From Paenisporosarcina sp. HGH0030 (GTDB lineage Bacteria; Bacillota; Bacilli; Bacillales_A; Planococcaceae): a DNA stretch of 51,912 nucleotides. A model generated the notes under the pieces. That model searched no databases. It was not told the DNA's origin and saw only the letters and a list, made by a program, of their open reading frames with translations. Within the stretch, counting starts at the first letter, position 1; every line of letters starts with the position of its first letter. This document shows positions 8,095-39,545 of the stretch, piece by piece. The position numbers and the translations under genes were made by a program. The stretch is taken from contig NZ_KE150425.1 of the NCBI RefSeq assembly GCF_000411295.1, positions 1-51,912 on the forward strand, given 5' to 3'.

Positions 8095-8145
8095 GCGTAA
8101 AGTGCCACTTAAGCTCGACACCGGCGCTGAAAGGATGGTTTCCTT
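8095..8145 (+). repeat. Dispersed hairpin repeat, copy R1 (left half only)
   Basis: Matches the left arm of the repeat family described at 19021-19145: GCGTAAAGTGCCAC, then a GCTCGACACCGGCGCTG segment, then a small hairpin AAAGGA/TCCTTT where the other copies have their central stem. The right arm is missing. It occupies the pabB-cysK gap. Confidence 0.6.
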
Positions 8146-8204
8146 TGTGCCAGGATTCATGAAAGAATGGAAGTTTTTAGTATAAGTTGATACTTTATTA
8201 GGCA

Positions 8205-8233
8205 CAAAAAAGAGAGAACGTCTCCGCTCTCTC
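8205..8233 (-). terminator. Intrinsic terminator downstream of cysK
   Basis: On the minus strand a GAGAG/CTCTC stem with a GC-containing loop is followed by TTTTTTG. It lies 12 bp after the cysK stop. Confidence 0.65.
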
Positions 8234-8244
8234 CTCTGCCATTA

Positions 8245-9171
8245 TTATTGTTCATCAAATTGGTATAATGGTGTACTTAAATAACGTTCCCCGTTCGAAG
8301 GAAGAATTGCTAAAACTTTTTTTCCTTTTCCGATCTTGCGTGCTACTTCCAGTGCCGCATATACAGCTGCCCCTGAAGAAACTCCACCCAGAATTCCTTC
8401 TTCGCGTGCCACTTTACGCGCAGTTTCATAGGCATCTTCGTTTGAGACTTGAATGATAGAATCGTATATTTCAGTGTTCAATACTTCAGGTACAAAACCG
8501 GCACCAATTCCTTGGATTTTATGAGGTCCTGGTTGACCACCCGATAAAACAGCTGAATCTTTTGGCTCAACCGCTACAATTTCAATGCCTGGGAAATTCT
8601 TTTTCAGCACTTCACCAGCACCTGTAATCGTTCCGCCAGTTCCAATACCAGAAATGAAAGCATCCAGTTGATCCATAGCTTCTACAATTTCCGGTCCTGT
8701 TGTTAAACGATGCACTTCCGGATTTGCAAGGTTATTGAATTGTTGCGGCATAAACCAACCATTTTCTTCAGCCAGTTCAGTTGCTTTCGCAATAGCACCC
8801 TTCATTCCGTCCGGTCCTGGAGTCAGCACTAAGTCTGCACCGTAAGCACGCAATAAATTGCGTCGTTCCAAACTCATGGTTTCAGGCATTACAAGGACGG
8901 ACTTGTAGCCTTTTGCCGCCGCAATCATCGCTAGCCCGATTCCTGTGTTTCCGCTTGTCGGTTCGATAATGGTGTCACCTTGTTTTAATTTCCCATCACG
9001 CTCAGCCGCTTCTACCATTGAAAGAGCAATGCGATCTTTCACACTACTGCTTGGATTGAAGAATTCTAACTTCAAATAGACTTCTGCATCTTCAGGTCCT
9101 GTTAAACGATTTAATTTCACAATCGGGGTTTTCCCCACTAAATCAGCTACTGAATTTCCCACACGTGTCAT
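8245..9171 (-). CDS. cysK: Cysteine synthase A (O-acetylserine sulfhydrylase)
   Basis: PLP-dependent synthesis of L-cysteine from O-acetylserine and sulfide. Starting at the ATG at 9171 ([18 protein letters not shown]) gives 308 residues, the normal family length, with AGGAG 7 nt upstream. The longer frame to 9240 contains the promoter and is unlikely. The PLP Lys lies in [11 protein letters not shown] (about residue 44), the substrate loop is [10 protein letters not shown], and the phosphate loop is [12 protein letters not shown]. It is a single-gene unit between a promoter and a terminator. Confidence 0.95.
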
Positions 9172-9218
9172 TTCCTCACTCCTAATCCCTAGTAACTCAA
9201 TTGGTTTTCGTTTCCTTA

Positions 9219-9247
9219 ATTCTACCAATTCTTCTGACATTTCGCAA
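9219..9247 (-). promoter_or_regulatory. Putative sigma-A promoter of cysK
   Basis: On the minus strand there is TTGCGA, a 17-nt spacer and TAGAAT, about 48 bp before the cysK ATG. In B. subtilis cysK is controlled by CymR; I cannot confirm a CymR site here. Confidence 0.55.
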
Positions 9248-9285
9248 ACAAAAAGCAGCTCCCTGAACGAATCAGAAAACTGCTT
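9247..9285 (-). terminator. Putative terminator downstream of yacD
   Basis: On the minus strand an AAGCAG/CTGCTT stem encloses a 21-nt loop and is followed by TTTG. The loop is long, so strength is uncertain. Its T tract abuts the cysK -35 region. Confidence 0.5.
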
Positions 9286-9294
9286 AAGTATATG

Positions 9295-10233
9295 TTATTC
9301 ACCATAAAACCATTCGGTGTCAAATTCTTTCCAGAAAGCTTCAGGTGATACAGATTGTGGCAATTGTTCCAAAGCTAGCTCTCTCTTAATCTGATTTTTT
9401 ACATCATCATATGAAAAAGCTCGCCCTTTTGCGATATCTTGCACATACACAATGCCGTACCTTCCATCGGATAGGGGAACAGGATCACTATATTGCTCTA
9501 TTTCCAGTTTACTAGCTGCCGTTACAACTGAATAGTCCACATTCTCCTGACCCTCCGAAATAAAGCCAATATCTCCGCCAAGGCTGGCTGAAGATACGTC
9601 AACTGAACGTTCACGAGCTAACACGTCAAAGGACGAACCATTTTCAAGTTCTTTTAGCGTCTCCTGTGCATCCGATTCAGACTGCAAAACAATCAAGCTC
9701 GTCCGATACGTCGTTGGGATATTATACAGGGACTGATTTTCATCGTAAAAGGTTTGAATTTGTTCGTCTTCAATTACCACATCTTTTGTTAACACTTTAT
9801 CTAAAATTAATTGCGCTCTCATTTGTTTGCGTTGCATATCGTCATTGAGCGAATGTATTTGTGAATTTGTACTATCCTGAGCAGAACGAATCAAGGCAAT
9901 TTCCAAATCTACTTCTTTATCCGTTACTTCAATTTCGTATTTCTCCGCTGCCGCTTCCATCACTTTACCATTTACAAGTTCAAGAAGTGTTTCTTTTCCG
10001 TACTGTTCTTCCATTGCGACCATCCAGTCTTCACGGGTGATTTTCTCACCACCAACGGATGCAACTTCTTCACCGCCACCAGTTTTTTGATTCGGAATCA
10101 TCCATGCGATGAACCACAATAAATTACCTAGCAGTAAAAGACCTAATACGATAAGTACTGGTTTTGTTTTCAATCTCCTCTGAGTAGGTCGACCATCCAT
10201 CGGACGACGATCATTATTATGATTTAATTTCAT
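9295..10233 (-). CDS. yacD: Membrane-anchored PrsA-like foldase / parvulin-type PPIase (YacD-like)
   Basis: Probable extracytoplasmic protein-folding factor. After a basic N-terminus there is one membrane segment ([20 protein letters not shown]). A SurA_N/PrsA-like helical region follows, and then a parvulin-type domain (about residues 150-250 of 312) with [12 protein letters not shown] and [12 protein letters not shown], typical of rotamase domains. There is no lipobox Cys, so it is a transmembrane protein rather than a lipoprotein like PrsA. The start is uncertain: the ATG at 10233 overlaps hslO by 17 nt and has only a weak ribosome site; another ATG is at 10200. It sits between hslO and cysK, as yacD does in B. 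subtilis. Confidence 0.8.
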
Positions 10234-37541: not shown

Positions 37542-37573
37542 TTGATAAAAAATAAGTACATAAGTGCGAAAGA

Positions 37574-37837
37574 TTATTTGACGACTACAAGTTCTTGCAT
37601 TCCGTCAACAATTGTAATTTCTACTGCTTCAGTTAAAATATCTGTGTAGCTGTAAGACACACGCTCGAAAGCGTTCTCGTCCTGATCAAGATCCACTACG
37701 AACACTGCATGATACGTTTCACGTAAAACGCCTGCTCGTTCAATCGTTTTCTTGCGACCACCGTTTGCTTTTAATTGCAAACGTTTACCTAAATGACAAT
37801 CTAAAGACTTCTTAATATCAGCTAAAGTTTTTGGCAT
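37574..37837 (-). CDS. veg: Veg protein
   Basis: Short, very highly expressed protein; in B. subtilis it is linked to biofilm matrix gene expression. The 87 residues start [20 protein letters not shown] and contain [20 protein letters not shown], both family hallmarks. The fold resembles a small beta-barrel. It has its own strong promoter and terminator. In B. subtilis yabG lies between rsmA and veg; here there is only a 147-bp gap. Confidence 0.96.
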
Positions 37838-37862
37838 TTCGCTTACACCTCACTTAGTAACA

Positions 37863-37891
37863 AGCATACCATATCAAAAAATATTTGTCAA
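37863..37891 (-). promoter_or_regulatory. Strong sigma-A promoter of veg
   Basis: On the minus strand TTGACA, a 17-nt spacer and TATGCT, 26 bp before the veg ATG, with A/T-rich sequence upstream. The veg promoter of B. subtilis is a standard strong vegetative promoter. Confidence 0.8.
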
Positions 37892-37984
37892 CCAAATTTA
37901 TTATTTTAACAATGAACAAAAGCACTTGTCAATAAGTTTCGTATAATCCAGCCGTCTTTTTTTAAAATAAGTGTGCTGAGTTTG

Positions 37985-38878
37985 TTATAAAGTCAGTGTT
38001 TCCTTGAAATCAGGAAGCAATAAATCTGCCAATTTCCCGAACTCTTGAATGGTTAATGTTTCCCCACGACGGGTTGGATCTATGTTCGCACCTTCGAGTG
38101 CAGCTAAAATCAAATCTTTCTTTTCTTTCCCATGTGGAAGTTGTGACTGCAAATTGTTTAGAATGGTTTTTCTGCGTTGGGCAAAAGAAGAACGCGAAAC
38201 CGTGAATAAGAAATCTTCATCCTGAACATGTACCGGAGCCGTCTCGTGTCTAGTTAATTTAATGACAGCTGAATCAACATTAGGTTGTGGGATAAATACT
38301 GTTTTCGGTACGGTCATGGCAATTTCAGCCTTCATATAATACTGAATGGCAATCGACAATGATCCATATGCTTTCGTGCTCGGAGAAGCTGTGATGCGAT
38401 CCGCCACTTCTTTTTGCATCATGACAACCATTCCGCGAATCGGCAGTTTTTCCATTAATAATTTGATCAAGATAGGTGTTGTTACATAGTAAGGTAAGTT
38501 TGCTACGACCATAACATCCTTGTATCCTGCCAGTTTTTCCTGCATCACTTCTGCCACGTTGGCTTTTAAAATATCCGAATGGACGATTTCTACGTTATTG
38601 TACGGAGAAAGCGTATCTTCCAACACCGGTAATAGTCGTTGATCGATTTCAAATGCAACCACTTGTCCCGCATTACGCGCTAAATGCTCTGTCAACGCAC
38701 CTATTCCAGGACCGATTTCAATAGCAGCAGAATCTTTTGTCAGCTTTGCATGACTGACAATATTATGAAGCACGTTCGGATCGATTAAAAAATTTTGACC
38801 TAAACTCTTTTTAAAGGAAAATCCATATTTTTTTAATATTTCTTGTGTACGTTTTGGGGTTGCAATATCTTTACTCAT
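37985..38878 (-). CDS. rsmA: 16S rRNA (A1518/A1519-N6,N6)-dimethyltransferase KsgA/RsmA
   Basis: Dimethylates two adjacent adenines near the 3' end of 16S rRNA in late 30S maturation. The 297 residues show [14 protein letters not shown], the SAM motif [15 protein letters not shown] (about 54-68), and the catalytic [10 protein letters not shown]. The ATG overlaps the rnmV stop by 8 nt, as in the B. subtilis rnmV-ksgA pair. Confidence 0.97.
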
Positions 38879-39437
38879 GTATGCCCTCCTGATCCAATTG
38901 TGCTAAAGCTTTTTTTAACTGCTCGCTTTCAATTTGGAACATTGATAATCTTTTTTGTAGTTGTTTTCCATTCGTATAACCAATCTGCAAAAGCTCGCCA
39001 AGTCTATCGCGACGCGCTTTAGCACTAGGATGCCCAATTAATCGCGCTTCCATCAATTGGTGAAGTGGAATTTCTTTTATTTCGTTCAACATATTTCTAG
39101 GTGTATATACATTTAATAGTGCTTGACGTATATCTTCGTCCGCTGCATGCTCTATGCCAAGACCTTTACCATTTTTTGCAATGGTTTTCTCTTTCGGTAA
39201 AAACGCATGCTTTACACCCTGTACCTGTTCTTCAATAATGGCACGAATACGTCTACCGGGGTAGTCAGGATCTGTAAAAACAATGACCCCTCTTTTATTT
39301 TGCGCATGCTGAATACGCTGAATGGTTTCTGATGAAATGGCAGATCCGTTCGTTTCGATGGTATCCGCTCTCACAGCACGCTTAATAGCGGTTGTATCAT
39401 CTTTGCCTTCCACCACTATTACTTCTTCAATAAACAC
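38871..39437 (-). CDS. rnmV: Ribonuclease M5
   Basis: Toprim-domain nuclease that matures 5S rRNA from its precursor. The 188 residues carry the Toprim Glu in [16 protein letters not shown] (about residue 10) and the acidic [10 protein letters not shown] motif (about 57-66). The start is GTG, with GAGG 9 nt upstream. rRNA loci flank this window on both sides. Confidence 0.95.
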
Positions 39438-39504
39438 GATTCACTGCCTCATTTCCAACTGCTTCTTTGCCTATTTTACTTGCGCACGCATTCAATGTAC
39501 ATAG

Positions 39505-39545
39505 AAAAGCGTAGCAGGCCAAGATAGTCCGACACTAACGACAAG
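39505..39545 (+). repeat. Dispersed hairpin repeat, copy R7 (left-end fragment)
   Basis: AAGCGTAGCAGGCCAAGATA followed by GTCCGACACTAACG resembles the left arm of copy R3 (AAGCGTAAAGTGCC..CTAGCCCGACACCAGCG). Only this fragment remains in the rnmV-yabE gap. Confidence 0.35.

Follow-up and report, generated by a model that had tools for sequence, protein, structure and literature searches.

Element A, a covarying hairpin repeat dispersed in the genome of Paenisporosarcina sp. HGH0030 and probably a non-autonomous mobile element

Copies of element A in the window

A family of dispersed hairpin repeats, here called element A, was analysed in a stretch of 51,912 nucleotides from Paenisporosarcina sp. 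HGH0030 (contig NZ_KE150425.1 of assembly GCF_000411295.1). This stretch, an entire contig (C5), is referred to as the window, and the 3.52-Mb genome to which it belongs as G000. A preliminary description made from the letters of the window had placed such repeats at seven positions in both orientations, and each of these places was found to hold a copy or the remains of element A. The pairs of the hairpin covary among copies, and element A is probably a mobile hairpin whose fold serves its propagation rather than each locus.

Element A is a 115-nt unit with the 5' end (G)AAAAGCG, also written GAAAAGCG, and the 3' end CTAGACAT; the leading G precedes AAAAGCG in 38 of 42 copies. Three full units stand in the window. 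R3 (19017..19131, plus strand, 133.6 bits with the covariance model) occupies the spacer between tRNA-Met (18875-18948) and tRNA-Glu (19153-19224), together with a Bacillaceae-1 RNA (RF01690) directly upstream of it (18949..19015, plus strand, 73.2 bits against a gathering score of 35). R2 (11952..12067, minus strand, 113.4 bits) is followed by the start of a second tandem unit (11921..11950, minus strand), which is a direct repeat of 12039-12068 (87%). R4 (25348..25462, minus strand, 123.7 bits) overlaps the stop codon of the gene upstream by its first base (distance -1; L017). R5 (29649..29824, plus strand, 62.2 bits) is a composite in which the two halves of A surround a 67-nt Bacillaceae-1 RNA (29719..29785, plus strand, 57.6 bits), and its 5' end adjoins, as judged by eye, a ribosome-binding-site-like stretch of a divergent gene of 1189 aa. 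The remaining copies, all on the plus strand, are incomplete: R1 (8092..8133) is truncated to the first ~42 nt of A (blastn E 1.6e-8, 88%), R6 (34132..34241) is decayed (29.9 bits, E 2.4e-5), and R7 (39505..39540) is a 5' remnant of ~36 nt which was recognised from its sequence and missed by the covariance model. R7 is supported because four congeners (G070, G072, G073, and G076) hold element sequence at the same point, as seen by eye. The claim that the copies fill seven of the longest gaps was roughly right, in that the gaps 41742-41985 and 43945-44603 of the open reading frame (ORF) list are also long and gave no match; the latter contains one small ORF.

Fold and ends of element A

The consensus fold was predicted with RNAalifold from an alignment of 19 chosen full copies, all from G000. 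It is a single long imperfect hairpin, bulged on one side and variable at its apex, with 32 pairs, of which 17 show compensated changes. Pairing was possible in 94.5% of the pairing cells of this alignment, as compared to 83.1% after shuffling and 21-44% when one side was slid by 1-3 columns; of five pairing measures one, the number of further pair types, was weaker, with 12 of 500 shuffles equally high. The predicted RNA fold of R3 has an energy of -53.2 kcal/mol (z -7.4), five simple copies range in z from -7.4 (R3) to -2.8, and R3 folded as DNA gives z -6.4. The predicted fold of the composite R5 did not reproduce the A hairpin.

At its extreme ends the family carries conserved sequences, GAAAAGCG and CTAGACAT (42 copies), that are not complementary to each other. 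The complementary stretches are subterminal, lie a few bases inside the ends, form the base of the hairpin, and covary rather than stay conserved. The near-matching inverted ends that had been proposed for R3 did not hold, since GTAGCACTTT sits just outside the 3' end of the element. A classical miniature inverted-repeat transposable element (MITE) was ruled out because the extreme ends are not inverted.

Covariation among copies

Covariation was evaluated with 64 hand-listed simple units of the genus, several of them from a second genome of the same species (G075), which were thinned at 97% to 56. The units were aligned by sequence alone, a tree was built, and null alignments were generated in which every branch retains its substitutions but these are moved to other columns; this tree-aware test follows the idea of R-scape in an implementation of our own and is not R-scape itself. 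Among the 56 copies, 11 of the top 12 column pairs by score were structure pairs. When only structure pairs were tested, 12 of the 32 passed E<0.05, and these were spread over all five helices. After thinning to 39 copies, 14 of the 32 passed and 10 of the top 12 column pairs lay in the structure. When all 6216 column pairs were tested, three structure pairs and one other pair (34-84) passed 0.05.

These observations show that the covariation of the pairs of element A is real and exceeds what the tree of copies predicts, and they support selection on structure across copies. The central stem covaries as had been described, and the outer and middle stems do so as well. The hairpin AAAGGA/TCCTTT described in R1 is present in the sequence, whereas R1 is too decayed for its pairing to be judged.

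Copy number and distribution

Further copies were found in the genome, with 51 matches to R3 by blastn and 66 to the covariance model at E 0.01, the latter ranging from intact to decayed, with scores between 133 and 26 bits (of 719 candidates, 150 were scored; model E-values are rough). Neither outcome that the preliminary description had named as refuting it, a lack of further copies or of covariation exceeding the phylogenetic expectation, was obtained. In a search of the order, in which the listed genomes all belonged to the same family and 14 candidates were scored per genome, matches at 1e-4 were obtained in 141 of 261 genomes, the own genome included, and in 15 of 19 genera. A class-wide sample gave matches in 28 of 299 genomes, among them members of six other families of Bacilli. 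An exact scan for the 27-letter core of the element matched 12 stretches, in the genus Paenisporosarcina only. In a genome of another genus, a unit is located between the 16S and 23S rRNA genes (L107). Separately, element A was seen by eye in or beside the spacers of rRNA operons in further genera (L104, L108, and L110), and four copies of equal score are among the matches listed for one genome (G090). Collections of plasmids and phages gave no match with one copy as query, and carriage by either was dropped on this single-query result. By hand count, the first half of G075 has 11 matches on the plus and 12 on the minus strand, and the second half has 10 loci on the plus and 16 on the minus strand; a strand bias was not clear, and this count, which takes the start of the contig as the origin, was not used.

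Position relative to genes

Gene context was determined with a simple ORF caller at 43 loci. The upstream gene was co-oriented with the element at 25 of these, and at 17 of the 25 the start of the element lies no more than 5 nt from the stop codon, where 3.3 such loci would be expected. In congeners, 11 of 14 starts were within 6 nt of a stop codon, several of these being the same loci in another species. At 17 of the 43 loci the upstream gene was divergent, and where it points away, the start of the element often adjoins a ribosome-binding-site-like stretch, as judged by eye.

Tandem rows and comparison with a second genome of the species

Units also stand in head-to-tail rows that repeat every ~117-120 bp. 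The own genome contains rows of five units (C1:1861832), four units (C2:438750), and two units (C1:1837087), and tandem rows are present in other species too. G075, a one-contig genome, was compared with G000 at 46 loci by means of anchors 30-90 nt outside the element; 0-8 of the 120 flank positions differed at these loci. Adding the counterparts of seven partnerless loci (flanks 98-99.9% alike) brought the set to 53 loci; at least one A locus (L038) and some weak matches lay outside this comparison.

At 16 of the 53 loci the two genomes differ in whole units, nested inserts, or exchanged content. Whole-unit differences were observed at six loci, R2 among them: five differ by -238, +116, +114, -355, and -119 bp in G075, and the sixth holds a composite of 177 nt in G075 and a remnant of ~10 nt in G000. 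The R2 site is the one shortened by 119 bp, with only the leading part of the unit kept, and the R4 locus has one extra unit in G075. Mixed row changes were found at two loci (+331 and +154, the latter with a run of N in G000), and changes of the apex or of a micro-repeat described below at four (+31, +34, and +76, two of these three having been read in the sequence; 2 versus 3 micro-repeats in the fourth). One locus (+62) had gained a Bacillaceae-1 module and exchanged its element, two loci hold strongly different elements (26/174 and 23/169 substitutions) between flanks differing at 1/120 and 0/120 positions, and one locus lacks its 3' half in G075.

Sites in other species and recent spread

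Six sites of the window were compared in up to four congeners (G070, G072, G073, and G076). At 8095 the copy is absent in G070, G072, and G073, and at 11952 there is no intact unit in the same three genomes (G076 not readable at either site). Site 25348 holds one unit in G073 and three in G070, with none clear in G072 and G076, and site 34152 is without the element in G072 and G076 (G070 and G073 not readable). At 29649 and 39505 all four congeners hold element sequence of differing content. The tRNA-Met/tRNA-Glu spacer, which carries Bacillaceae-1 RNA and A in this species, holds A alone in G073 and a degraded stretch in G070; it is unit-less in G072 and G074, and in G072 a diverged unit follows tRNA-Glu. 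In G076 the same spacer shows a 48-nt near-perfect palindrome made of the 5' end of A (L232, 13061-13108). Empty sites in relatives, which the preliminary description had named as something to look for, are those at 8095 (G070, G072, and G073) and in the tRNA spacer (G072 and G074). Its comparison of the repeat with a MITE holds in part: the element is dispersed and non-coding, and relatives have sites without it, whereas inverted extreme ends and a clear target duplication are lacking, as are the three kinds of mover that were searched.

In Paenisporosarcina sp. TG20, copies on three contigs are 98.2% (L064/L101) and 96.5% (L101/L058) alike. They have a 3' tail of ~50-90 nt in common, and their 5' flanks are unrelated beyond ~5 nt. 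Such near-identical copies at different places point to a fairly recent spread in the genus. A 3' tail of 50-90 nt is common to copies of TG20 and OV554 (L058, L060/L101, L063, and L064) and was unseen in copies of the own genome.

Nested modules

The own genome contains 22 Bacillaceae-1 RNAs over the Rfam cut-off. Ten of them split an A unit into its two halves, and in these the 3' junction falls at one and the same point, immediately ahead of AAGCTTAGG or its variants; two more lie directly upstream of an A unit (both by eye). By our own labels, another repeat flanks six of the others on at least one side, three are of a third kind, and one belongs to none of these. A second dispersed repeat, GACCCCGCAG...GAGGAGGCTC, was seen by eye to carry Bacillaceae-1 RNA as well (L031, L034, L036, L042, and L051). 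Nesting of Bacillaceae-1 RNA in other genera, gauged by the duplex energy of its flanks, gave a mixed picture, with strong pairing in some and not in others (4 of 47 loci skipped for odd length), and at several loci in other Bacilli the RNA instead stands directly beside rRNA or tRNA genes (L263, L264, L268, L271, L273, L275, L278, and L279; flanks by eye).

A micro-repeat of 25-34 nt, TTTGCGACGAGTAACCGCAGGAGCA, was also found. Its 25-nt form occurs 61 times in the genome at up to 3 mismatches (reversed control, 0), at places that include the apices of A and the loops of Bacillaceae-1 RNA, often in rows of ~34 nt. C1:778923-779015 and C1:1769532-1769666 are examples.

Fate of pairs in resident copies

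Changes within the hairpin were counted in 31 hand-listed pairs of the same copy in G000 and G075, with the exchanged loci L002, L074, and L151 and most row copies left out. There were 17 pair-keeping and 23 pair-breaking single changes and one compensated double change, when random mutation, with an assumed transition weight, would keep ~35%. Between different loci of the genome, compensated double changes were the most frequent class, at 2145; uncompensated doubles numbered 178, and single changes kept a pair in 588 cases and broke one in 816. These counts were made over pairs of copies and are not independent. Substitution rates of 5.0% in stems, 4.3% in loops, and 2.3% in flanks were set aside, since they include exchanged loci and a comparison of three L018 units to a row that is not orthologous. 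Across species, two of eight hand-picked orthologous sites were near-identical (110/115, no double change). The other six hold a different copy, 80-89/115 alike, with 5-12 compensated doubles, 0-2 broken singles, and 0-1 uncompensated double. Resident copies thus lose pairs about as random mutation predicts and seem to drift, and no per-locus selection was seen. The selection on structure suggested in the preliminary description is supported across copies (12/32 pairs, E<0.05) and was not seen at single loci between these two genomes.

Interpretation

We propose that element A is a non-autonomous, REP-like (repetitive extragenic palindromic) mobile hairpin, the fold of which serves propagation and not each locus, and we put the probability of this reading at about 0.6. 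No protein mover of the three kinds searched was found, and element A is therefore called a non-autonomous, REP-like hairpin repeat. Propagation is the most likely source of the selection on the fold, which would be needed for it, and a protein acting in trans presumably moves the element. In such a scheme, spreading lineages would have to fold, as single-stranded DNA or RNA, and their pairs would come to covary among copies, while a copy once resident would drift and decay. Units may settle with the 5' end hard at a gene boundary, at stop codons in the sense orientation and, as far as the eye can judge, at ribosome-binding sites in the antisense one. Sites already occupied could gain, lose, or exchange further units, which would give tandem rows with the ~117-120-bp period, and the apical side of the hairpin would collect small hairpin repeats, namely Bacillaceae-1 RNA at one fixed point and the 25-34 nt micro-repeat. 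In favour of the proposal are the 66 matches of all states of decay in the genome, the covariation in all five helices, the sites of relatives that are free of the element, the differences at 16 of 53 loci between G000 and G075, the TG20 copies, the loss of pairs in residents at about the random rate, and the 17 of 25 starts close to a stop codon.

Several observations weigh against this proposal. The column pair 34-84 covaries strongly yet lies outside the structure. Direct repeats at the ends are weak: among 34 hand-listed loci, which exclude copies whose 5' end is fused or decayed, repeats of at least 5 nt were found at 4 (1.0 expected, P 0.013) and of at least 4 nt at 8 (4.3 expected, P 0.043), and the summed score gave P 0.12. 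No pristine empty site or fresh jump was found between G000 and G075, both genomes having at least a remnant at 53 of 53 loci, in a comparison that read G075 mainly at its own element matches and could miss a fresh site. Sites are often common to several species, and in the own genome no two of 21 distinct simple copies are more than 89% alike. The pair-keeping test is small (41 changes), and recent variants have perhaps not yet been purged. Finally, the search for movers covered three kinds only and found none in this species. The Y1 transposase profile PF01797 gave 0 matches in G000 and G075 and matched 5 of 14 control genomes, by which a Y1/IS200-605 transposase or a REP-associated tyrosine transposase (RAYT) was ruled out. 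Reverse transcriptase (PF00078) was absent from G000, G075, and G072 and present in G070, G073, and G076, and reverse transcription was ruled out on its absence from this species. The integron integrase TIGR02249 stayed below cut-off in five of five genomes, which ruled out an integron.

A bolder and rather unlikely version is that element A forms a gene-less cassette system in which some recombinase would trade folded units into and out of docking points fixed at gene ends, and that 'Bacillaceae-1 RNA' would in good part be a transposable module docking in the loops or ends of larger hairpin repeats and not a stand-alone small RNA.

It is unlikely that element A is instead an RNA element of the host, whose hairpin would protect or process transcripts (mRNA 3' ends, tRNA and rRNA spacers) and whose pairs would be kept by selection at each locus. 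The sense orientation right after stop codons (17/25), the placement in a tRNA spacer and, in a relative, in the 16S-23S rRNA spacer, and the RNA fold z of five simple copies all agree with such a role, as does the finding, in the part of PMC3446304 available to us, that 84/165 and 62/155 intergenic repeats of two Bacillus cereus strains lie within an mRNA. Residents do not visibly keep their pairs, however, at 17 kept and 23 broken with ~35% expected to be kept. Many copies are decayed, one and the same site varies in presence, unit number, and content between strains and species, and the upstream gene is divergent at 17 of 43 loci.

Somewhat less probable still are passive relics, that is, old immobile REP-like repeats whose rows change by slippage and ordinary recombination and whose covariation was inherited from a few ancestral source lineages. 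Dispersed near-identical copies are indeed missing from the own genome, slippage gives unit-sized differences, and the difference at L003/L136 looks like differential loss of units from what was a longer row. The covariation test, by contrast, takes the tree of copies into account and still gives 14/32 pairs when the set is thinned to 39, the TG20 copies are up to 98.2% alike at different places, and a single site can hold different, well-paired units in several species.

A gene-less relative of attC sites, in which a tyrosine recombinase would join folded units end to end at their borders, is improbable: the imperfect hairpin with its one-sided bulge and variable apex, the head-to-tail rows of near-constant period, the exchange of units, and the presence of tyrosine recombinases scoring below the integron cut-off would suit it, whereas no integron integrase scored over cut-off in five genomes and no attC R boxes (R' and R'') were noticed, though no pattern search was aimed at them.

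The proposed reading links a family curated in Rfam with a broader system of hairpin repeats, nested in one another, across Bacilli. It also offers a clean test of whether covariation in bacterial repeats reflects a host RNA function or only the need of spreading lineages to fold. That copies covary while residents seem to drift is a warning against taking covariation alone as function, and the unit-sized differences between strains make the moving activity directly testable.

Comparison with known systems

Element A matched no Rfam family at gathering score in the window and none at E 0.1 at six loci (Rfam 15), whereas the nested 67-nt module belongs to RF01690. The integron attC sites are folded single-strand recombination sites with a variable apex. 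Element A resembles them in length and in the variable apex, and differs in that the A rows read contain no cassettes and that no integron integrase scored over cut-off.

No description of element A was met in titles and abstract starts of the open-access literature; subscription papers lay outside that search, and a prior description is possible. A table in a 2010 paper lists the Bacillaceae-1 motif as certainly RNA, and the passages of that paper at hand do not mention nesting. The stem-loop families Bhal-1 (74 bp) and Bant-1 (72 bp) of Petrillo et al. 2008 are, in the portion of PMC2267715 seen, likewise intergenic and folding and come from Bacillus; compared by description only, they are shorter. 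The bcr1 MITE of the Bacillus cereus group is, in the same portion of PMC3446304, also short, non-coding, dispersed, and folding, and often lies in untranslated regions. Unlike MITEs, element A has neither inverted extreme ends nor a clear target duplication, bcr1 having been compared by description and not by sequence.

Element A was also compared with REP elements and bacterial interspersed mosaic elements (BIMEs) with RAYT (Y1) transposases. Element A differs from these in its length (115 nt versus 20-40 nt), its ends GAAAAGCG and CTAGACAT, its nested modules, and the lack of Y1_Tnp in G000 and G075, and the GTAG or CGTC tag of REP was not seen in it by eye. According to the part of PMC3733652 consulted, REP elements lie near the 3' end of the gene that precedes them, whereas their distance to the following gene varies, form tandem clusters, and have termini that can supply stop codons. 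Element A likewise consists of dispersed intergenic hairpins near the 3' end of the upstream gene, with termini able to supply a stop codon and with units in tandem clusters.

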